64,000 nucleotides of DNA from Bacteroidota bacterium (GTDB lineage: Bacteria; Bacteroidota; Rhodothermia; Rhodothermales; JANQRZ01): positions 1 to 64,000 of the forward strand of contig JBCDKT010000019.1 in the NCBI GenBank assembly GCA_038746285.1, given 5' to 3'. Both the position numbers and the translations under genes were made by a program. Below are positions 1 to 52,582 of this stretch, piece by piece (within the stretch, counting starts at the first letter, position 1; each line of letters begins with the position of its first letter). The notes below the pieces were generated by a model. The model saw only the letters and a list, made by a program, of their open reading frames with translations. It ran no database searches and was not told the DNA's origin.

Positions 1-122
1 CTTTCTCGGCTTTTCTTTCCACTCCTCCCACTCCTCCCACTCCTCCCACTCCTCCCACTCCTCCCACTCCTCCCACTCCTCCCACTCCTCCCACTCCTCC
101 CACTCCTCCCACTCCTCCCACT
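1..122. repeat. 9-bp tandem repeat tract (CACTCCTCC, 11 copies) with 19-nt leader
   Basis: From position 20 the 9-nt unit CACTCCTCC repeats 11 times and abuts the stop codon of the minus-strand deacetylase gene. Bases 1-19 form a non-repetitive leader that recurs exactly at 52452-52470, again followed by the same unit. On the sense strand of the upstream gene the tract reads AGTGGGAGG repeats starting directly after TAG. Confidence 0.95.
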
Positions 123-1478
123 CTACCGCCCCTCCAGCACGTCCCGCAGGCTGAGCACGGCGGCCCCGTCGGCGAGGGCGCGGTCGAGGGTGCGCTCGAA
201 GACGGCGGCCTGGCCGGGGTAGTCCACCTCGTCGTAGACCGTGTTGTGCCAGAGCACGACGCACACGCCGCCCACGCGGCGGCATGCGGCGAAGAGGCCG
301 AGGATCGCGGCCTCGGCGGCGTCCGGGGCGAGGCCGAGGTGGGCGAAGAGCGTCGTGTCCATCACCGCGAGCGGCAGCTCCCAGAGGTCGAGCGGCGCGT
401 TTGCCTCCAGGTCGAAGAGCGGGAACGGGAAGCAGGTCCCGCGCCGGAAGCCCGGCTGCCGGGCGAAGCCGAGCGTCGAGTCGAGCCGGAACCCGGCGGC
501 GGCGTGAAGCCTCGGCGTTGCCTCCGTCCAGCGCAGGAAGTGCTGGCGGACGGCGGTCGGCGGCGCGCCCGCGAGAGCCGCGAGGCGGCTGCGCTCCTCG
601 GCGAGGTGGCCGGGGTGGTCGTGCGCGAAGTAGCTCGGGTGCAGCCCGACCTCGAACCCGTCGCCGAGGTCGGCGATGAACCGGCGCAGCCAGGGGTCGT
701 ACGCCGGGTACGGCACGTCCCACGGACTCCGGGCGGCGGTCTTGAAGAAGTAGGTCGCCCCGACGCCCCGACGCCGCTCGGCCTCGGCCATCCGTTCGAG
801 GCTCCGCTTGCGGGGGTTGGGGTCGAAGACGGCTTGCCGGACGGCGGCACCGGCCTGCCCGTCGCGGCGGAGGGCGGCGCGGGCAAGCGTGCCGAGCCGC
901 CGCTTGCGCAGCAGGTCGACGTCGTGCGTCAGCGCCACGGCCCACGGCCTCCCCTGCCGCGTCCACCGGCAGACCGGCACGCCGTGCGCGGCGAGCTGCT
1001 CGGCCAGCCTCTCCCGGTACAGGTCCACGACCGGCGCCGCCGCGCAGCCCAGCACCGCCTGGAGCGAGGCGTGGTACGGGAAGCGCCCGTGCTCGTCGCG
1101 CACCCGCGTCGTGGCCTCCTGCCAGCCCGCGAGCCAGAAGAACGCCGAGGCGATGAGGTCGGGGCGGTGAGACGGTGGGACGGTGAGACGATGGGACAGG
1201 CACCGGGGGAAGAGGACCGGGACGCCGTCGACCGTCGAGGCGTCAGCCGCCGCGTACGCATCGGACCCGTCGAAGAACGCGGCCGTGTCCGGGTCGAGGT
1301 GGAGGGCGAGGACGGACTCGGGCAGGCCGTCGGGCCGGGGGCCGTAATAGAGCGCGCCCGTGCCGAGTTCATCCCGGGACGCCCACGCCGGGGCGAGGCC
1401 GAGCGGGGCGAGGAGCACGCGCAGCGCGTAGCGCGCTTTCGGCTCGAACGCCGCCGGCGCTTCGACGCAGCAAGGCAC
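123..1478 (-). CDS. Polysaccharide deacetylase family protein
   Basis: Probable cell-surface or cytosolic carbohydrate N-deacetylase of the NodB-fold superfamily (about 451 aa). A variable N-terminal half is followed by the metal-site strand THDVD at about residues 184-188 and a second histidine motif HPSYFAHDH at about 280-288. I chose the GTG at 1478. An ATG at 1541 is in frame, but it lies in a CAGAGGA-repeat spacer resembling the intergenic tract at 26578 and next to a -7-like box, so it would leave no leader. Odd feature: about residues 94-106 are encoded by a GTGAGACGGTGGGAC-type tandem repeat otherwise seen between genes. No polysaccharide operon surrounds it, so the substrate is unknown. 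The fold is fairly sure; function is inferred. Confidence 0.8.
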   Translation of the reverse strand: MPCCVEAPAAFEPKARYALRVLLAPLGLAPAWASRDELGTGALYYGPRPDGLPESVLALHLDPDTAAFFDGSDAYAAADASTVDGVPVLFPRCLSHRLTVPPSHRPDLIASAFFWLAGWQEATTRVRDEHGRFPYHASLQAVLGCAAAPVVDLYRERLAEQLAAHGVPVCRWTRQGRPWAVALTHDVDLLRKRRLGTLARAALRRDGQAGAAVRQAVFDPNPRKRSLERMAEAERRRGVGATYFFKTAARSPWDVPYPAYDPWLRRFIADLGDGFEVGLHPSYFAHDHPGHLAEERSRLAALAGAPPTAVRQHFLRWTEATPRLHAAAGFRLDSTLGFARQPGFRRGTCFPFPLFDLEANAPLDLWELPLAVMDTTLFAHLGLAPDAAEAAILGLFAACRRVGGVCVVLWHNTVYDEVDYPGQAAVFERTLDRALADGAAVLSLRDVLEGR

Positions 1479-3800: not shown

Positions 3801-4634
3801 TTATACCTCCAGCATCCCCTGAAAGACGGCGACGGCGGGGCCTTCGAGCCATAGGTCGCGGACGTGGCCGTGCTCGTTGAGGCCGAACCCGACGCGGAGC
3901 GTCCCGCCCCGGGCGACGATCTCCACTTCGTCGCCCTCGACCCGCTCCATGAGCCGCGCCACGAGGGCCGCCGCGAGCGCCCCCGTCCCGCACGCCAGCG
4001 TCTCGGCCTCGACGCCCTTCTCGAACGTCCGCACCTCCACCCTCGCCGGGCTCGCCTCGGCGATCTGCACGAAGTTGACGTTGGCCCCCTCGGGCGCGAG
4101 CGCCGCGTCGTGCCGGATGCGCGGGCCGATCTTCTCGACGTTCGCCGTCGCCACGTCGCGGGCGAAGACGACCGTGTGGTGGGTGCCGGTCCAGATGTAG
4201 GGCACGGTCCCCCCGGCCTCGAGCACGCGCGCCGGGTCGAAGTGCTTCGGGTTCGGGACGAAGAGGCGAACCGGGGCGTCGGGATCGCCGGGCACCGAGG
4301 CGCGGTAGACGCCGTCGTCGGAGGCGAAGACGAGCGGCTCAGCGTCGAGGCCGGCGGTGCGGGCGAAGCGGGCGAGGCAGCGGGCGCCGTTGCCGCACAT
4401 CCCGGCGCGCGAGCCGTCGGGGTTGACGTAGTCCATCCGGTAGGCGTGCCCCTCGTCATCGGGCGCGCTCAGCGCGAGGAGGCCGTCGGCCCCGACCCCG
4501 AAGCGGCGCGGGCAGAAGCGCCGGGCGAGGTCGGCGAGTTCGTCGTGCGCGAGGTGGAGGAAGCGGTTGTCGAGGACGAGGAAGTCGTTCCCCGCGCCGT
4601 GCATCTTGGTGAAGGGGACGACGAGGTTGGGCAT
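3801..4634 (-). CDS. dapF: Diaminopimelate epimerase
   Basis: Cytosolic enzyme converting LL- to meso-diaminopimelate for lysine and peptidoglycan synthesis. It is 277 aa, normal for the family. Both cysteines of the two-base mechanism are present: Cys80 in MCGNGARC and about Cys215 in ACGTGALAAA. The N-terminal KMHGAGNDFLVLDN motif is canonical and fixes the ATG at 4634. The start codon is directly preceded by six copies of an 8-bp repeat, so its 5' UTR is almost entirely TCCGCTCT repeats on the sense strand. Convergent with the ppiD-like gene. Very sure. Confidence 0.97.
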   Translation of the reverse strand: MPNLVVPFTKMHGAGNDFLVLDNRFLHLAHDELADLARRFCPRRFGVGADGLLALSAPDDEGHAYRMDYVNPDGSRAGMCGNGARCLARFARTAGLDAEPLVFASDDGVYRASVPGDPDAPVRLFVPNPKHFDPARVLEAGGTVPYIWTGTHHTVVFARDVATANVEKIGPRIRHDAALAPEGANVNFVQIAEASPARVEVRTFEKGVEAETLACGTGALAAALVARLMERVEGDEVEIVARGGTLRVGFGLNEHGHVRDLWLEGPAVAVFQGMLEV

Positions 4635-4682
4635 AGAGCGGAAGAGCGGAAGAGCGGAAGAGCGGAAGAGCGGAAGAGCGGA
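4635..4682. repeat. 8-bp tandem repeat (AGAGCGGA, 6 copies) against the dapF start
   Basis: Six exact AGAGCGGA units followed by a degenerate seventh. The first unit touches the dapF ATG. It is also about 130 nt upstream of phoH on the plus strand. Confidence 0.95.
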
Positions 4683-4814
4683 AGAGCAAGATAGGCGGTG
4701 TCTCGCCTTCGCGTGGCGATCCGTCAGAGTTCACGCATCCAGCATCGTGCGCCGGAAAACCTCCGCCGAATCCGCGCATACCAGACGCCCCTACTCACTC
4801 TAGCTCCCTGCTGA

Positions 4815-14275: not shown

Positions 14276-14304
14276 GTGAGACGGTGGACGGTGAGACGGT
14301 GGAC
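14276..14304. repeat. 15-bp tandem duplication (GTGAGACGGTGGACG)
   Basis: Two copies of GTGAGACGGTGGAC(G) between panC and fumC. The same unit type occurs inside the deacetylase gene at 1166-1199 and after the PspC gene at 40364-40411. Confidence 0.85.
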
Positions 14305-14349: not shown

Positions 14350-14357
14350 TATCTTCC
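14350..14357 (+). promoter_or_regulatory. Candidate -7 box (TATCTTCC) for fumC
   Basis: TATCTTCC starts 44 nt before the fumC ATG, matching the element also seen at 59826. Motif-based. Confidence 0.4.
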
Positions 14358-14393
14358 GCTCCTCCCTTCCTCCGCTCTTCCGCTCCTAGCCCA

Positions 14394-15785
14394 ATGCCTG
14401 AGATGCGCATCGAAAAAGACTCGCTCGGCGAGGTCCATGTCCCCGCCGACGCCCGCTACGGTGCCCAGACCCAGCGCGCGCGCGAGAACTTCCCGATCTC
14501 CTCGCTCCGCTTCCCGCGCCGCTTCATCGAGGCCCTCGGGACCGTCAAGCGCGCCGCCGCCCACGCCAACAACGGCCTCGGCCTCCTCGACGCCTCGAAG
14601 GCGCTCGCCATTGCCGACGCCGCCGACCGCGTGGCCCAGGGCCAGCTCGACGGCGAGTTCGTGCTCGACATCTTCCAGACCGGCAGCGGGACCTCGACGA
14701 ATATGAACGCCAACGAGGTCATCGCCCACGTCGCCAGCGAGGCAACGGGCGACGCTCATGGCATCCACCCGAACGACGACGTGAACATGGGCCAGTCGTC
14801 GAACGACGTGATCCCGACCGCGATGCACGTCGCCGCCCGCGTCGGGATCGAGAACGAACTGATCCCGGCGCTGGAGCGGCTGCACGCCTCGCTCGCGGCA
14901 AAGGCCGAGCAGTTCGACGACATCGTCAAGAGCGGGCGGACACATCTGATGGACGCGACGCCGGTCCGGCTCGGGCAGGAGTTCGGCGGCTACGCGTCGC
15001 AGGTCGAGCACGGCATCCGCCGGCTGCGCAACGCCTCGGAGGAGCTAGCCGAACTCGCCCTCGGCGGGACCGCCACCGGCACCGGCATCAACCGCCACCC
15101 CGACTTCTCGCGTCTCGCCATCGAGCGCATCTCCGAGGCGACGGGGCTCGCCTTCCGCGAGGCCGAGAACCACTTCGAGGCGCAGGCCGCGAAGGACGCC
15201 TACGTCTCGGCCTCGGGCGCGCTGAGCACGCTCGCCGTCTCGCTCCTCAAGATTGCCAACGACGTCCGCCACCTGTCGAGCGGCCCGACGAGCGGGCTGA
15301 GCGAAATCCAGCTCCCCGCCGTCCAGCCCGGAAGCTCGATCATGCCGGGGAAGGTCAACCCGGTGCTCTCGGAGGCGCTGATGATGGTCTCGGCCCGCGT
15401 GATGGGCAACCACGCCACGATCACCGTCGGCGGGCAGCACGGCAACTTCGAGCTCAACGTAATGATGCCGGTCATGGCGCACGCCATGCTGGAGAGCATC
15501 GAGATCCTGGCGAACGGCTGCGACGCCTTCCGCGCGCGCTGCCTCGACGGGATCGAGGCCAACCGCGAGCGCTGCCGCGAGCTGCTGGAAAAGAACCCCT
15601 CGATTGCGACGGCGCTCAACGACGCCATCGGCTACGACGCCGCCTCGAAGATCGCCAAGCAGGCCGCCGCCGAGGGCCGCTCCGTCCGCGACGTGCTCGA
15701 AGAAAAGGACCTCATCCCCGACGACGAGATCGACGCCGTCCTCGACGTGCGCTCGATGACCGAGCCGGGCATTCCGGGGCGGTAG
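14394..15785 (+). CDS. fumC: Class II fumarate hydratase
   Basis: Iron-independent fumarase of the TCA cycle, 463 aa, cytosolic homotetramer in the family. Conserved regions are present: TGSGTSTNMNANEVIA, SSNDVIPTAMH, SGRTHLMDATPV and the GSSIMPGKVNPV superfamily signature with the catalytic loop serine. Start ATG 14394 (MPEMRIEKDSLGEVHVP) is the natural family start; the in-frame ATG at 14328 would add spacer-encoded residues. A second possible ATG is at 14403. Very sure. Confidence 0.97.
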   Translation: MPEMRIEKDSLGEVHVPADARYGAQTQRARENFPISSLRFPRRFIEALGTVKRAAAHANNGLGLLDASKALAIADAADRVAQGQLDGEFVLDIFQTGSGTSTNMNANEVIAHVASEATGDAHGIHPNDDVNMGQSSNDVIPTAMHVAARVGIENELIPALERLHASLAAKAEQFDDIVKSGRTHLMDATPVRLGQEFGGYASQVEHGIRRLRNASEELAELALGGTATGTGINRHPDFSRLAIERISEATGLAFREAENHFEAQAAKDAYVSASGALSTLAVSLLKIANDVRHLSSGPTSGLSEIQLPAVQPGSSIMPGKVNPVLSEALMMVSARVMGNHATITVGGQHGNFELNVMMPVMAHAMLESIEILANGCDAFRARCLDGIEANRERCRELLEKNPSIATALNDAIGYDAASKIAKQAAAEGRSVRDVLEEKDLIPDDEIDAVLDVRSMTEPGIPGR

Positions 15786-19985: not shown

Positions 19986-20416
<431 letters not shown>

Positions 20417-20430
20417 GCCGTACCAACAGA

Positions 20431-20848: not shown

Positions 20849-21013
20849 GACGTAGGTGCGGCGCGGGTTGGACGGAAGCGGCAGGCAAGGTAGCACCGTC
20901 CCGGCTGGGGCGCAGGCAAGCGCGTGTGAAAAAGAGGGGCGAAAGGAAGAGGGGGCGAAAGGGCGTATGGGCGAAAGGGAGACTGAGGGACCTTCTCCAG
21001 CGTCGCCTTTCAC

Positions 21014-21069
21014 CACTCGCCCACTCGCCCACTCGCCCACTCGCCCACTCGCCCACTCGCCCACTCGCC
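21014..21069. repeat. 8-bp tandem repeat (CACTCGCC, 7 copies) abutting a stop codon
   Basis: Seven exact CACTCGCC units end at the TAG of the minus-strand Nudix gene. On the gene's sense strand this reads TAG then GGCGAGTG repeats. G-tracts of three recur every 8 nt. Confidence 0.95.
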
Positions 21070-21618
21070 CTACCCCGACCGTCTCGCCACCTCAGCCCCG
21101 GCCCGCAGGAGCGCGACGGCGCTCTTGGTATCAAACACGTCGCCGCGCTCCGCCATCGCCACGGCCTCGGCGAACGGCAGGCGGAAGGGCTCGACGAACT
21201 CGTCGTCTTCGGCCTCGGCCTCGGCTTCGGACAGGTCTTCGGCGAGGAAGAGGTGGATGACCTCGTTGCTGTATCCGATGCACGGGTAGGTCGGGCCGAG
21301 CGGCGTGAGCGCCCGCGCCGTGTAGCCCGCCTCCTCCTCGAGTTCGCGCACGGCAACCTCAGCCGGGTCCTCGCCGGGCCTGTCGATCTTGCCCGCCGGG
21401 ACCTCGACAAACTCGCGCCCCGGCGCGTAGCGGTACTGCCGGAGTAGGATCGTCGTCCCGTCTTCGAACAGCGGCACGACGGCCGCGGCCCCGGGGTGCT
21501 CGATCCATTCGCGCACCGAGGTCCCGCCGCCGGGCAGCGTGACCGTGTCGCGGTAAGCACGAAGCAGCACGCCGTCCACGAGCAGGGCACGGTCCTTCAG
21601 GGTTTCAGTGAGGTCCAT
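21070..21618 (-). CDS. NUDIX hydrolase, ADP-ribose pyrophosphatase type
   Basis: 182 aa, cytosolic. The Nudix box is complete: GKIDRPGEDPAEVAVREL followed by EEEAGY. Upstream strands TILLRQYRYAPGREFVEVPAG are typical of NudF-like ADP-sugar pyrophosphatases, and YPCIGYSNEVIHLFLAEDL follows the box. It starts 5 nt after the rsmE stop and ends at a 7-copy repeat. Likely third gene of the BamA-like/rsmE operon. Confidence 0.92.
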   Translation of the reverse strand: MDLTETLKDRALLVDGVLLRAYRDTVTLPGGGTSVREWIEHPGAAAVVPLFEDGTTILLRQYRYAPGREFVEVPAGKIDRPGEDPAEVAVRELEEEAGYTARALTPLGPTYPCIGYSNEVIHLFLAEDLSEAEAEAEDDEFVEPFRLPFAEAVAMAERGDVFDTKSAVALLRAGAEVARRSG

Positions 21619-25971: not shown

Positions 25972-26577
25972 ATGGACTTTGACCTGATCATCTTCCTGCT
26001 GATCTTCCTGTTCCCGCTGTTCCAGCGGCTCTTCGGGAAGAAGCGCCAGCAGCCGGCGAAGCAACCGCAGCCGGCGAAGCGGGCGCGGCGCGCGCGGCCC
26101 GAACTGGAGGCGACCTCGGCCGAGCAGCCAGAGCCCCAGCCGGCGCGCGACCCGCTCAGCGAGGCGCTCCGCCAGATCCGCGAGGCCCTCGCCGAGCAGG
26201 CCGAGCCGGAGCGGCAGCAGCCGGAACCGCAGCCCCGAGCCCTGGCCGAGCGGCCCGACGAGTTCCGGGAGGTAGGCGAGTTCGAGCACGAGGCGCACGG
26301 CTTCGGCCGGGAGAACCCACTCTCGGAGGAGGTCTTCGAGCGGCGTCCCGCCTTCCAGACGCGCACTCAGGCCCGCCCGGAGCGCGTAGCCCCCAAGCGC
26401 ATTCCCCAGAAACCGCTCGGCGACGTAGACCTCTCGACGCCGCTCGAAGTCAAGACTGAGGGCGACGCGTCGCGCCGCGACCTCGCCCGCCGCCTCCGCC
26501 AGCCGGGCAGCGCCCGCGACGCCTTCGTGCTCAAGGAAATCCTCGACGCCCCGCGCAGCCGTCGCTCGATGCGCTGA
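25972..26577 (+). CDS. Membrane-anchored proline/arginine-rich protein, unknown function
   Basis: 201 aa. One N-terminal membrane segment (LIIFLLIFLFPLFQRLFG, residues 4-21) is followed by a charged, proline- and glutamate-rich, probably disordered region. A more ordered C-terminus (SRRDLARRLRQPGSARDAFVLKEILDAPRSRR) ends the protein. The last part, ARDAFVLKEILDAPRS, resembles the C-terminal helix of short anchored proteins common in Bacteroidota, but I cannot name a family. It lies 69 nt after mutY. The TGA stop is followed directly by a 7-bp tandem repeat. Confidence 0.7.
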   Translation: MDFDLIIFLLIFLFPLFQRLFGKKRQQPAKQPQPAKRARRARPELEATSAEQPEPQPARDPLSEALRQIREALAEQAEPERQQPEPQPRALAERPDEFREVGEFEHEAHGFGRENPLSEEVFERRPAFQTRTQARPERVAPKRIPQKPLGDVDLSTPLEVKTEGDASRRDLARRLRQPGSARDAFVLKEILDAPRSRRSMR

Positions 26578-26623
26578 CAGAGGACAGAGGACAGAGGACA
26601 GAGGACAGAGGACAGAGGACAGA
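26578..26623. repeat. 7-bp tandem repeat (CAGAGGA, 6 copies) directly after a TGA stop
   Basis: Six exact CAGAGGA units start at the base after the stop codon of the plus-strand gene. The same unit occurs as two to three copies at about 1510-1531. Confidence 0.95.
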
Positions 26624-26673
26624 AAGGTAGTCGCGGAGCGCGACGGGGTCGGTAAATTTCGCGGTTTTTATTC

Positions 26674-26743
26674 CACTCTCCCACTCTCCCACTCTCCCAC
26701 TCTCCCACTCTCCCACTCTCCCACTCTCCCACTCTCCCACTCT
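26674..26743. repeat. 8-bp tandem repeat (CACTCTCC, 8 copies) abutting a stop codon
   Basis: Eight exact CACTCTCC units plus a partial one end at the TAG of the minus-strand membrane protein. On the sense strand the mRNA would continue TAG then AGAGTGGG repeats, i.e. GGG every 8 nt with 5-nt loops. Confidence 0.95.
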
Positions 26744-27220
26744 CTAAAACTCTGGCTCCGGCCCGCCTTTCTTGAAGAGCGCAGCGCCGACGGCGCCGCC
26801 GATGGCGCCGAAGACGGCGAAGAGCAGGGCCCCAAGCAGGGTGCCCGAGAGCCAGCCGGTCACGGTACGCGACGCCTCCTGCTGCGCCTCGATGTCGCGG
26901 ATCTGCTCCTCCGTCATCATCCCCCGGAACCGGTCCATCACCAGGTCTTCGATAGCTCCGCCGTCCAGCCCCAGCGCAAGCAGCAGCAGGGTGAGTAGCG
27001 CTGAGACGATGGACCCGAGCGCTCCGGCCGCAGCGCCGATCCCGGCTCCAGTTCCTCCGGCAATCGTGAGCGCGTGCGTGTCGGTGTAGTGCCACACCGC
27101 CACCGCCGCTCCGATCATCACGCCCAGGCAGCAGAGCGCGTTGATGAGGCCGAGGTAGGACGTAGAGAGCACGCCGACCGTGAGCGCACCGACCAGGATC
27201 GAGGACTGTTTGCTGGGCAT
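26744..27220 (-). CDS. Small multi-pass membrane protein, unknown function
   Basis: 158 aa from ATG 27220. Four hydrophobic segments: about 8-28, 30-45, 55-82 and 122-145. Glycine/alanine-rich stretches (GGTGAGIGAAAGALGS; FGAIGGAVGAALFKKGG) occur within or next to them. A central cytosolic helix (DLVMDRFRGMMTEEQIRDIEAQ) is charged. It resembles DUF4199/DUF5518-like membrane proteins only in general form. The gene stops at TAG followed by the 8-copy repeat. Confidence 0.75.
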   Translation of the reverse strand: MPSKQSSILVGALTVGVLSTSYLGLINALCCLGVMIGAAVAVWHYTDTHALTIAGGTGAGIGAAAGALGSIVSALLTLLLLALGLDGGAIEDLVMDRFRGMMTEEQIRDIEAQQEASRTVTGWLSGTLLGALLFAVFGAIGGAVGAALFKKGGPEPEF

Positions 27221-39622: not shown

Positions 39623-40363
39623 ATGAGCGCACGCACCCGGAACCGCAAACCGTCCGACGGCGAGGCCCGCGAGCCGGACGAGGTGTTCGCCTACGAGGCA
39701 GCCTACGGCCTCGACGACGACATCACCGACGATGACATCGCGGACTTCCTCCACGCCAAGGAAGCAGAGGAGGAGAAACCCGGCATCTGGAACCTCCCCA
39801 CGATCGCCGGCCTCTCGACGATCACGGTCGGCTCGGCGTACCTGCTGCAGGAACTCGGCCTCTTCGCCTCGGGCTTCGACTTCTCGGCGCTCGTCGGGCC
39901 GTGGCTGATCGGGGTGCTAATCATCCTGCTCGGCTTCGGGGTGCTCTCGTGGAGCCCGGACCGGAAGCGCCGCAAGCAGAAGCAGCGCGAGCGGGCCGCC
40001 CGCCGCCGCGCCCGCGCGCAGGCTGGCCGGACCGCGTCGCGCCGCGAGCGCAAGCAGGACCGCCGCGAGCGCAAGACCGAGCGCCGGTCGGACCGCCGGG
40101 CCCGCTACGAACGCCGCCGTGGCCGCTTCGCGAAGTCGCGCACCAACCGTAAGCTGTTCGGCGTCGCCGGCGGCATCGGCGAGGCGCTCGGCATCGACCC
40201 GACGCTCGTGCGGATCGCGTTCGTGATCGCACTCATCGCGGGCTCCGGGGCGGCCATCCCGATCTACCTCCTCCTGGCCTGGCTCATGCCCGACGCCAAG
40301 TCTACGGCCTCGGCGATCTCCGACCGCGACCTCGACGACGACCGGATGATCATCATTCGGTGA
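39623..40363 (+). CDS. PspC-domain membrane protein
   Basis: 246 aa. An acidic N-terminus (DDDITDDDIADFLHAKEAEEE) precedes two membrane segments (about 58-78 and 88-108), a strongly basic arginine-rich linker (about 112-175) and a C-terminal PspC domain (NRKLFGVAGGIGEALGIDPT then VRIAFVIALIAGSG and YLLLAWLMP). PspC domains take part in envelope stress sensing. The extra N-terminal membrane pair and the long basic linker are unusual. Divergent from phaR; TGA is followed by a GACGGAGG-type repeat and a hairpin. Confidence 0.85.
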   Translation: MSARTRNRKPSDGEAREPDEVFAYEAAYGLDDDITDDDIADFLHAKEAEEEKPGIWNLPTIAGLSTITVGSAYLLQELGLFASGFDFSALVGPWLIGVLIILLGFGVLSWSPDRKRRKQKQRERAARRRARAQAGRTASRRERKQDRRERKTERRSDRRARYERRRGRFAKSRTNRKLFGVAGGIGEALGIDPTLVRIAFVIALIAGSGAAIPIYLLLAWLMPDAKSTASAISDRDLDDDRMIIIR

Positions 40364-40411
40364 GACGGAGGACGGTAGGACAGAGGACGGTGAGACGGAG
40401 GACGGTGAACG
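40364..40411. repeat. Purine-rich imperfect tandem repeat after a TGA stop
   Basis: GACGGAGGACGGT units recur three times with variants directly after the PspC stop codon. Same family of spacer as 14276-14304 and 26578-26623. Confidence 0.8.
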
Positions 40412-40431
40412 GGTAACTCCTCTGTACAGCA

Positions 40432-42796: not shown

Positions 42797-44110
42797 CTAG
42801 GGACCAGAAACTGGGTCGTAGACCCCAACGGTCAGGCGGTCGCGGTCGAAGAGGCGGCGGGCGGCGGCCTGCACGGCCTCAGCGGTGACGCGCTCGATCC
42901 GGTCGAGGTAGGTGGTGTAGAGCGTCCAGTCGCCGGCGGCGACGGCCTCGTTGAGCTGGGAGGCGATGGCGTACGGCCCGTCGCGCCCGAAGGCTTCCTG
43001 GGCGACGACCTGGTTGCGGGCGCGCTCGATCTCTGCCTCCGTCAGCCCCTCGTCGGCGACCGCCTGCAGCGTCTCCCACAGCGCGGCCTCCACCTCGGCG
43101 TGGGTCACGTCGGGCGCGAGCGCGCCGTAGACGATGAACAGGCCGGGGTCGCGCAGGCGCGGGGCGTAGGCGAAGACGCTCGTCGTCAGGCCCTGGTCGG
43201 TCAGGCGGCGGTAGAGGCGGCTGCTCTTGCCCGACCCGAGGGCGACCGAGAGCACGTCGAGCGCGTCGGCGTCGGCGTCGAGCGCGGCGACCGACTTGAA
43301 CCCGAGCATGACCGCCCCCAGCTGCCCCGCTTGGCGGACCGTCACGCGGCGCTCGCCGGCCTGGGGCGGCTCGGCCGTGACGGGGTGCTCGAAGGCGTCC
43401 GGCGCCGCCGGGATCGCCCCGAAGTGCTGCTCGACAAGGTCGAGGGCGTCGGTCCGGTCGAAGTCGCCGATGACTGAGGCTGTCGCGTTGTCGGGCCAGT
43501 AGTAGGTGTCGTAGAAGTGCCGCAGCCCGGCGGCGGTGACGGTCTCCACGTCCGAGCGCCAGCCGATGGTCGGGTGCCCGTAGGGGTGGGCGAAGTAGGC
43601 CGTCGCGTGGAGCGCCTGGAGGAGCTTGCGCGTGGGGTCGTTCTCGCCCCGGTCGAGTTCGTTGAGAACCACGGTCCGCTCGCTCGCGAGGTCCTCGTCG
43701 CGGACGCGCGCGTTCCGCATCCGGTCGGCCTCGACCTCGACGGCGAGGCCGAGGTGCTCGCTCGGGAGGAGCTCGAAGTAGTTCGTCCGGTCGAACCACG
43801 TCGTCGCGTTGACGGCGGCGCCGACGCGCTGGAGGGTCGGGAAGATGGCGGTCCCGTCGTCCTTGTTGTAGCGCGCCGTCCCCTTGAACATGAGGTGTTC
43901 GAGGAGGTGGGTCGCACCCGTCAGCCCGGCACGCTCGTTCCGGCTCCCGACGCGGTAGGTCACCATGAACGTCACGACCGGCGCGGCGGCCTGCGGCAGC
44001 AGGAGCACCGTCAGGCCGTTGCTGTCCAGGCGGTACTCCTCGATCCCGCCGGAGGCTTTGACGAACGTGAAGGCGGGGTGCTCGGCGGAGGTCGGGTCGG
44101 TGATCTGCAT
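42797..44110 (-). CDS. M16 family zinc peptidase, catalytic subunit
   Basis: 437 aa. The inverted zinc-binding motif is intact, THLLEHLMFKGT near 66-77, with the downstream Glu in NELDRGENDP region. Further M16 marks: VGSRNERAGLTG, NATTWFDRTNYFELLP, HPYGHPTIGWRSDVE and YYWPDNATASVIGDFD. No signal peptide, so probably cytosolic processing of peptides or targeting sequences. Forms a gene pair with the non-catalytic M16 protein downstream. Start ATG 44110 (MQITDPTSAEHP). Confidence 0.93.
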   Translation of the reverse strand: MQITDPTSAEHPAFTFVKASGGIEEYRLDSNGLTVLLLPQAAAPVVTFMVTYRVGSRNERAGLTGATHLLEHLMFKGTARYNKDDGTAIFPTLQRVGAAVNATTWFDRTNYFELLPSEHLGLAVEVEADRMRNARVRDEDLASERTVVLNELDRGENDPTRKLLQALHATAYFAHPYGHPTIGWRSDVETVTAAGLRHFYDTYYWPDNATASVIGDFDRTDALDLVEQHFGAIPAAPDAFEHPVTAEPPQAGERRVTVRQAGQLGAVMLGFKSVAALDADADALDVLSVALGSGKSSRLYRRLTDQGLTTSVFAYAPRLRDPGLFIVYGALAPDVTHAEVEAALWETLQAVADEGLTEAEIERARNQVVAQEAFGRDGPYAIASQLNEAVAAGDWTLYTTYLDRIERVTAEAVQAAARRLFDRDRLTVGVYDPVSGP

Positions 44111-44208
44111 AGGGTGCGGGGGCTAGAAACCAGGAAACCAGCACACGCACCGCCCGCGAGAGGTTCCACCTGCGTCTCGTGCTGCTACAGGCTCACCCTG
44201 ACGGGCTT

Positions 44209-44275
44209 GTCATCCCGAACTCGGTTCAGGATCTCGGAGCCACGCTTTAGATCCCGGATCGGGGTCCGGGATGAC
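44209..44275. repeat. Inverted-repeat element, GTCATCCCGAACTC family (copy 2)
   Basis: 67 nt with perfect 9-bp ends GTCATCCCG/CGGGATGAC. Arms GTCATCCCGAACTCGGTTC and, from the right, GTCATCCCGGACCCCGATC are diverged copies of one another. Lies between polA and the M16 pair. Same family as 24114-24193. Confidence 0.85.
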
Positions 44276-44312
44276 AGCGGAGGGGGCCCGTCAGTCTCAG
44301 CTTGCCGGAGGA

Positions 44313-52297: not shown

Positions 52298-52451
52298 GGC
52301 CAGGGCGAGTGGGTGAGGGCGAGCGCTTCTATGCGCGCCGGCCCCGGCAGGATGCAGAGAGCCTGTGGAAAGTGCGCCCGCGGCGCGGAATGGGAGGAGT
52401 GGGGCGAACGGGAAGAACGGGCGTTGGTGCCAGGCGCGAAGGTCCCAGTAG

Positions 52452-52508
52452 CTTTCTCGGCTTTTCTTTCCACTCCTCCCACTCCTCCCACTCCTCCCAC
52501 TCCTCCCA
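52452..52508. repeat. 9-bp tandem repeat (CACTCCTCC, 4 copies) with conserved 19-nt leader
   Basis: CTTTCTCGGCTTTTCTTTC at 52452-52470 is identical to window bases 1-19 and is followed by four CACTCCTCC units, then a degenerate one. Here it lies in the divergent region between the phosphatase gene and dxs. Confidence 0.93.
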
Positions 52509-52582
52509 CACTCCTGCTCGCCTTTCAGTTTATATTGAAACCCGCTCCAGGCCGCTGCGTCCACGCCCGACCTGCCTGCCAG

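Follow-up and report, generated by a model that had tools for sequence, protein, structure and literature searches.

Results

Arrays and elements in the window

In the window, by which we mean the whole 64,000-nucleotide stretch of DNA analysed, the gap between the convergent genes 25972-26577 and 26744-27220 is filled by a single element (26576-26744) made up of (GACAGAG)6.9, a core and (CCACTCTC)9. Its G-rich arm is one of three arrays that an initial annotation had located directly after TAG stop codons, and all three were confirmed as perfect tandem arrays on the minus strand (Table 1). Among the gene identities proposed there, Nudix was confirmed by Pfam for 21070-21618; the "deacetylase" gene 123-1478 has DUF7033 as its sole Pfam match, and gene 26744-27220 matches DUF4199 slightly under the Pfam cut-off. 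The sample of three sites was misleading: in the same window, one array (4635-4687) adjoins a start codon and another (26576-26623) a TGA codon.

Table 1. Coordinates of arrays, cores and elements in the window
Feature	Coordinates	Strand	Remarks
Start of a core (AAAGAAAAGCCGAGAAAG on minus strand)	1-18	-	Cut by contig end at position 1; identical to flank at 52450-52469
G-rich arm, (AGTGGGAGG)11.7	19-123	-	TRF 9-mer, 100% identical; abuts TAG of gene 123-1478
(AGAGCGGA)6.6, start-side counterexample	4635-4687	+	Abuts ATG of DAP epimerase gene 3801-4634, antisense strand
R arm (GTGAGACGGTGGACG)	14276-14304	+	6 bp from pantoate ligase gene start
Facing Y arm (TCCGCTCC-type)	14355-14387	-	Upstream of fumarase-family gene 14403-15785
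Degenerate R arm (GGGCGAAA-type)	20932-20982	+	TRF; faces Nudix array
G-rich arm, (GGCGAGTG)7.2	21013-21070	-	TRF 8-mer, 100% identical; abuts TAG of Nudix gene
R arm, (GACAGAG)6.9	26576-26623	+	First base 2 bp inside TGA of gene 25972-26577
Conserved 53-bp core (AATAAAAACCGCGAAATTTACCGACCCCGTCGCGCTCCGCGACTACCTTTCTG on minus strand), short GCGC-type hairpin	26620-26672	-	nhmmer E=2e-11; sequence-only model R1 48 bits, E=3.4e-12
G-rich arm, (AGAGTGGG)9	26673-26744	-	TRF 8-mer x9.0, 100% identical; overlaps TAG of gene 26744-27220 by 1 bp
Purine-rich array (CGGTGAGACGGAGGA)	40358-40412	+	At stop of gene 39623-40363
Second complete element, approximate extent	52374-52521	-	Outer GCGCC..GGCGC hairpin, Y-rich arm, core, G-rich arm 52470-52509
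Core of second complete element	52416-52468	-	nhmmer E=8e-10; 43.6 bits with model R1

Other features were observed in the same window. A second arm-centre-arm family, with one unit in both arms (GAGCGGAAGAGCGGAAG ... CTTCCGCTCTTCCGCTC), is represented at 4635-4687 and also at C12:34051, C17:7123 and C6:100107; the whole gap could form one long hairpin, and TATCTT, probably a -10 motif, is present in some copies. Another repeat dispersed between genes, unlike these and marked by a GTCATCCCGGACCCCGATCCGGGATC palindrome, lies at 44110-44312, C3:94531, C9:25770 and elsewhere, occupying some 20 gaps or more in the sample. Bacterial RNase P RNA of class A, at 19987-20419, was the sole match above the gathering score in an Rfam scan of the window, which returned none for the arrays or the element.

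Placement of the arrays across the genome

The Rhodothermales assembly (G000; 4.08 Mb in 134 contigs) may be a MAG. A sample of 1.91 Mb was analysed, comprising 1602 genes whose boundaries were set by a codon-usage caller written for this analysis. It contains 77 mostly intergenic arrays with units of 7-10 bp, and array density reached 27 per Mb, compared with 4 and 7 per Mb in samples of two relatives. The three arrays in the window are far beyond chance. The units include TGGGAGGAG, GGACAGA, TGAGACGG and GGAAGAGC, as well as others; they differ among sites and shift phase inside an array. In many arrays the centre is a different one, or no core was recognised.

The suggestion that placement is not random was borne out. 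In 32 of the 50 filtered arrays having genes on both sides, a coding sequence lay no more than 10 bp from the 5' edge of the purine-rich strand, whereas random placement would give 5.4 (maximum 19 in 20,000 draws); the 3' edge lay as close in 2 of the 50. Specificity for stop codons, and for TAG in particular, was not upheld. The 32 adjoining edges comprise 16 at stops, on the sense strand, and 16 at starts, on the antisense strand, and the stops abutted by all filtered arrays were 13 TGA, 6 TAG and 1 TAA (genome usage: TGA 785, TAG 604, TAA 203). Given this equal division and the prevalence of TGA, the placement rule is not "after TAG"; what lies at a gene boundary is the 5' edge of the array. 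It is not obvious how random insertion alone would put so many edges within 2 bp of a codon.

Arrays were found within 150 bp of 5 of the 32 contig ends examined, about eight times the expectation. They thus seem to break the assembly, and copy numbers near 100 bp, which may be capped in this way, may be underestimates. The contig of the window itself begins within an element (core fragment 1-18).

A conserved core between facing arms

Comparison of the flanks revealed that arrays pair up face to face around conserved sequence. An iterated profile, followed by alignment, defined a 53-bp core, and model R1, built from 42 genomic copies, matched the genome 97 times with strict filters and 126 times at E up to 0.01. 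In the 1.9 Mb sample nearly all cores are intergenic, though about 88% of the sequence is coding. Of the two readings offered earlier, a 3'-end signal or an element that targets stop regions, the element fits better, albeit not one specific to stops.

Copies share a common anatomy: a G- or purine-rich tandem arm, the core of about 53 bp with a short GCGC-N3-GCGC hairpin, and a C- or pyrimidine-rich arm, at whose outer end some copies carry a further GCGCC..GGCGC hairpin. Arm units go together with core subtype, and the near-identical cores C19:26620 and C2:141821 have both arm units in common. The identical cores C2:99567 and C2:101339 have left arms of about 2 and 12.5 units and right arms of 4.9 and 7.6 units, as recent slippage would give. 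The exact sequence GCGCCGNAGGCGC, a near-palindrome for which both strands may count one site, occurs at 16 sites in the sample, 12 of them within 150 bp of a core, and was absent from 460 kb of the congener.

Comparison with relatives

In a search of 60 genomes of the order, G000 alone proved to have many cores. The congener G001 has one degenerate core match, the flank of that locus being similar to the core that G000 carries at C15:150, and G002, from another genus of the same family, has two, with G-rich flanks like arms and, in one case, a C/T-rich flank as well. Among 114 genomes of the order, the array of the 9-mer unit was found in no other genome and the GACAGAG array in two others. 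The core model also matched more distant genomes (L135, L136), in stretches that resemble coding sequence; these matches were regarded as due to chance. A stricter core pattern gave no match in GTDB species genomes and viral contigs, sets that may omit G000 itself, and element DNA had no match in plasmids and phages.

For 28 core-bearing junctions, the two flanking genes could be located next to each other in G001; 30 further short loci of the congener were retrieved by a chimeric query of the gene ends flanking the cores. All 28 junctions score 18-55 bits with the core model in G000, and all 28 score below 6 bits in G001. The gap is longer here by a median of 103 bp at the core junctions, compared with 2 bp at 94 junctions outside the core-bearing and array-bearing classes (p=1e-6), and several gene pairs that overlap or lie 5-8 bp apart in G001 are separated by a 100-200 bp element in G000. 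At the Nudix array, the gap measures 221 bp here and 93 bp in the congener. The cleanest empty site corresponds to 52374-52521, where G001 reads CTGTGGAAAGT, 18 unrelated bases and then TCTTTCAGTTTATATTG, and no target duplication is visible in the comparison. By eye, neither terminal inverted repeats nor target-site duplications were visible at the cleaner sites, where the arms are too variable to fix both ends. Gain in G000, as opposed to loss in the congener, is suggested by the numbers of copies that three genomes of the family contain.

Plain microsatellites, arising by independent slippage in purine-rich gaps and halted by selection at coding sequences, would require no dispersed element. 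Such an origin would agree with the variation of units among sites, the phase shifts within arrays and the different copy numbers found with the same core; the pyrimidine-rich sequence that is general upstream of starts in this genome could have provided a compositional seed, and some of the corresponding gaps in the congener hold other quasi-repeats. It is nevertheless unlikely, as it accounts neither for the recurrence, in about 100 gaps, of a 53-bp core whose phase relative to the arms is fixed nor for the median gain of some 100 bp over the 28 junctions, and ordinary gaps have no purine bias downstream of stops (0.51 at convergent ends). The core alignment is far against slippage as a complete account, although slippage is likely for arm length and for the coreless arrays.

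Gene context and possible function

Core-bearing elements occupy 26 tandem, 7 divergent and 5 convergent gaps, with no bias (p about 0.5). Between genes of the same direction, the G-rich arm points towards a start in 16 cases and towards a stop in 10, with no clear orientation preference.

Throughout the genome, starts are preceded on the sense strand by an excess of TA(T/C)CTT, greatest at a distance of 30-50 bp, and then by C/T-rich leaders; these upstream regions showed no clear -35 element. To judge from this enrichment, promoters of this genome may use TA(T/C)CTT about 30-50 bp upstream. Since pyrimidine-rich leaders are general and accompany this motif, a pyrimidine arm placed upstream of a start looks like an ordinary leader. 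The core might be a two-way promoter or regulatory site with the pyrimidine-rich arms as leaders, and, read leftwards, it often has TANNTTT. We consider this improbable, because the motif occurs on the stop side (10/16) little less often than on the start side (16/23), TANNTTT is rare rightwards, and copies are equally common where no promoter is needed.

The initial annotation had suggested, as one of two options, a 3'-end signal, and had noted that the RNA could form stacked G-quadruplexes. A canonical G3 quadruplex motif is present in 27 of 56 arrays and absent from 29. It failed as a predictor of placement: the 5' edge lies within 10 bp of a coding sequence in 20 of 29 arrays without the motif and in 12 of 21 with it. 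Judged by motif content, G4 stacking would not be the common property of the arrays, because those lacking the G3 motif hug CDS edges as often. A more general version, in which an RNA G-quadruplex or hairpin after the stop ends or protects transcripts, would be in keeping with the G3 motifs, with the three window arrays behind TAG and with the gap 26576-26744, which folds better than shuffles as minus-strand RNA (z -2.1). The plus strand of the same gap, however, folds worse than shuffles (z +2.3), starts carry as many arrays as stops, and neither the stop side nor convergent gaps are enriched. An intrinsic terminator was rejected on the latter grounds and on the fold of the core RNA, which has only 4 consensus pairs at -1.9 kcal/mol. 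Furthermore, some gene pairs with a copy between them here overlap or almost abut in the congener; a strong terminator in such a place would be harmful, which argues against strong termination by the element. A 3'-end signal is therefore very improbable, and we infer from the gene context that the element is tolerated, not used.

Despite its short GC hairpin and dispersed intergenic copies, a REP-type element moved by a RAYT/Y1 transposase is the least credible candidate, Y1_Tnp (PF01797) having no match in G000, with a few per cent of the assembly missing, or in the congener. The single reverse transcriptase match in G000 (L195, G000:C77:2632-3231), with none in the two nearest relatives, was considered as a telomerase-like source of the arms and discarded as CRISPR-associated, since it adjoins a reading frame that we take to be Cas1-like.

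Discussion

The arrays are probably the arms of a dispersed, non-coding intergenic element amplified in this lineage. The simplest reading is a lineage-specific, MITE- or BOX-like intergenic element with slippage-prone arms that is tolerated solely between genes. Copies would have been inserted between coding sequences, and their arms would then have lengthened, shortened and changed unit through replication slippage. As both strands run from purine to pyrimidine, a copy in either orientation would place a pyrimidine-rich leader upstream of a start and a largely stop-free, purine-rich tract downstream of a stop, so that any gene boundary could tolerate one. The outer limits would be imposed by the coding sequences: selection would remove copies inserted into a gene and arms growing into one, with the result that arrays would look fixed at start or stop codons. 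No mobilising enzyme was found in the search, and transposition is thus deduced from presence and absence of copies alone. Spread by break-repair copying between junctions, with the G-rich facing arrays, which run 5' to 3' towards the core, serving as homology, is conceivable and quite unlikely; if true, a mobile family would be spreading by means of its arms without a dedicated transposase.

The initial annotation knew of no described family with these features, but the placement rule had already been published. Rehm et al. (2015) described G-rich 7-mer arrays, GGGNATC or GGGGA(C/T)T, between genes of Xanthomonas and Nostoc, immediately downstream of stops on the sense strand or immediately upstream of starts on the antisense strand (PMC4692102). 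Those repeats lie nearer the 5' neighbouring gene whatever its direction, facing pairs occur, and 83% of the repeats are common to two species (PMC4692102). Both the placement rule and the facing pairs are found here. Unlike the GGGNATC repeats, however, the present arrays have many units of 7, 8 and 9 bp, none of them GGGNATC or GGGGAYT and about half without G3 tracts, their facing arms enclose a conserved core, none of 28 cores is common to the congener junctions, and divergent gaps are not avoided. As with MITEs and other small interspersed repeats, copies are many, dispersed and intergenic, restricted to one lineage, with empty sites in relatives.

Pneumococcal BOX is built of longer modules, whereas here a unit of 7-9 bp is repeated in two arms that face each other. 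BOX, RUP and SPRITE of Streptococcus pneumoniae are small interspersed intergenic repeats interpreted as parasitic (PMC3049150), and the present element would likewise have proliferated in one species and is rare in relatives; a likeness in sequence is not expected. The BrickBuilt MITE of Porphyromonas gingivalis is also dispersed and intergenic and contains a tandem array of variable copy number (PMC4596501). It differs in its 23-nt unit, its single array between leader and tail and its small inverted-repeat ends, compared with the 7-9 nt units, the two arms around a core and the inverted ends not found here (PMC4596501). In the excerpt of the report on the TAACTGA direct repeats of Beggiatoaceae, a single 7-mer in 2-6 copies lies mostly just upstream of start codons (PMC4679880); short tandem repeats a few bases from start codons are thus common to both systems, and the core present here has no counterpart in that excerpt. 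The family described here is thus a dispersed intergenic repeat in which two facing arms, built of unstable repeats of 7-9 bp, flank a conserved core.

These results illustrate how an apparent stop-codon signal can arise from an element that merely fills intergenic space, and they warn that such arrays break assemblies. The placement rule of the Xanthomonas and Nostoc repeats is now found in a distant phylum, together with a dispersed core and a core-free congener. If the spread is confirmed, about a hundred natural insertions would be available to gauge the effects of long G-rich and C-rich tracts on neighbouring genes.
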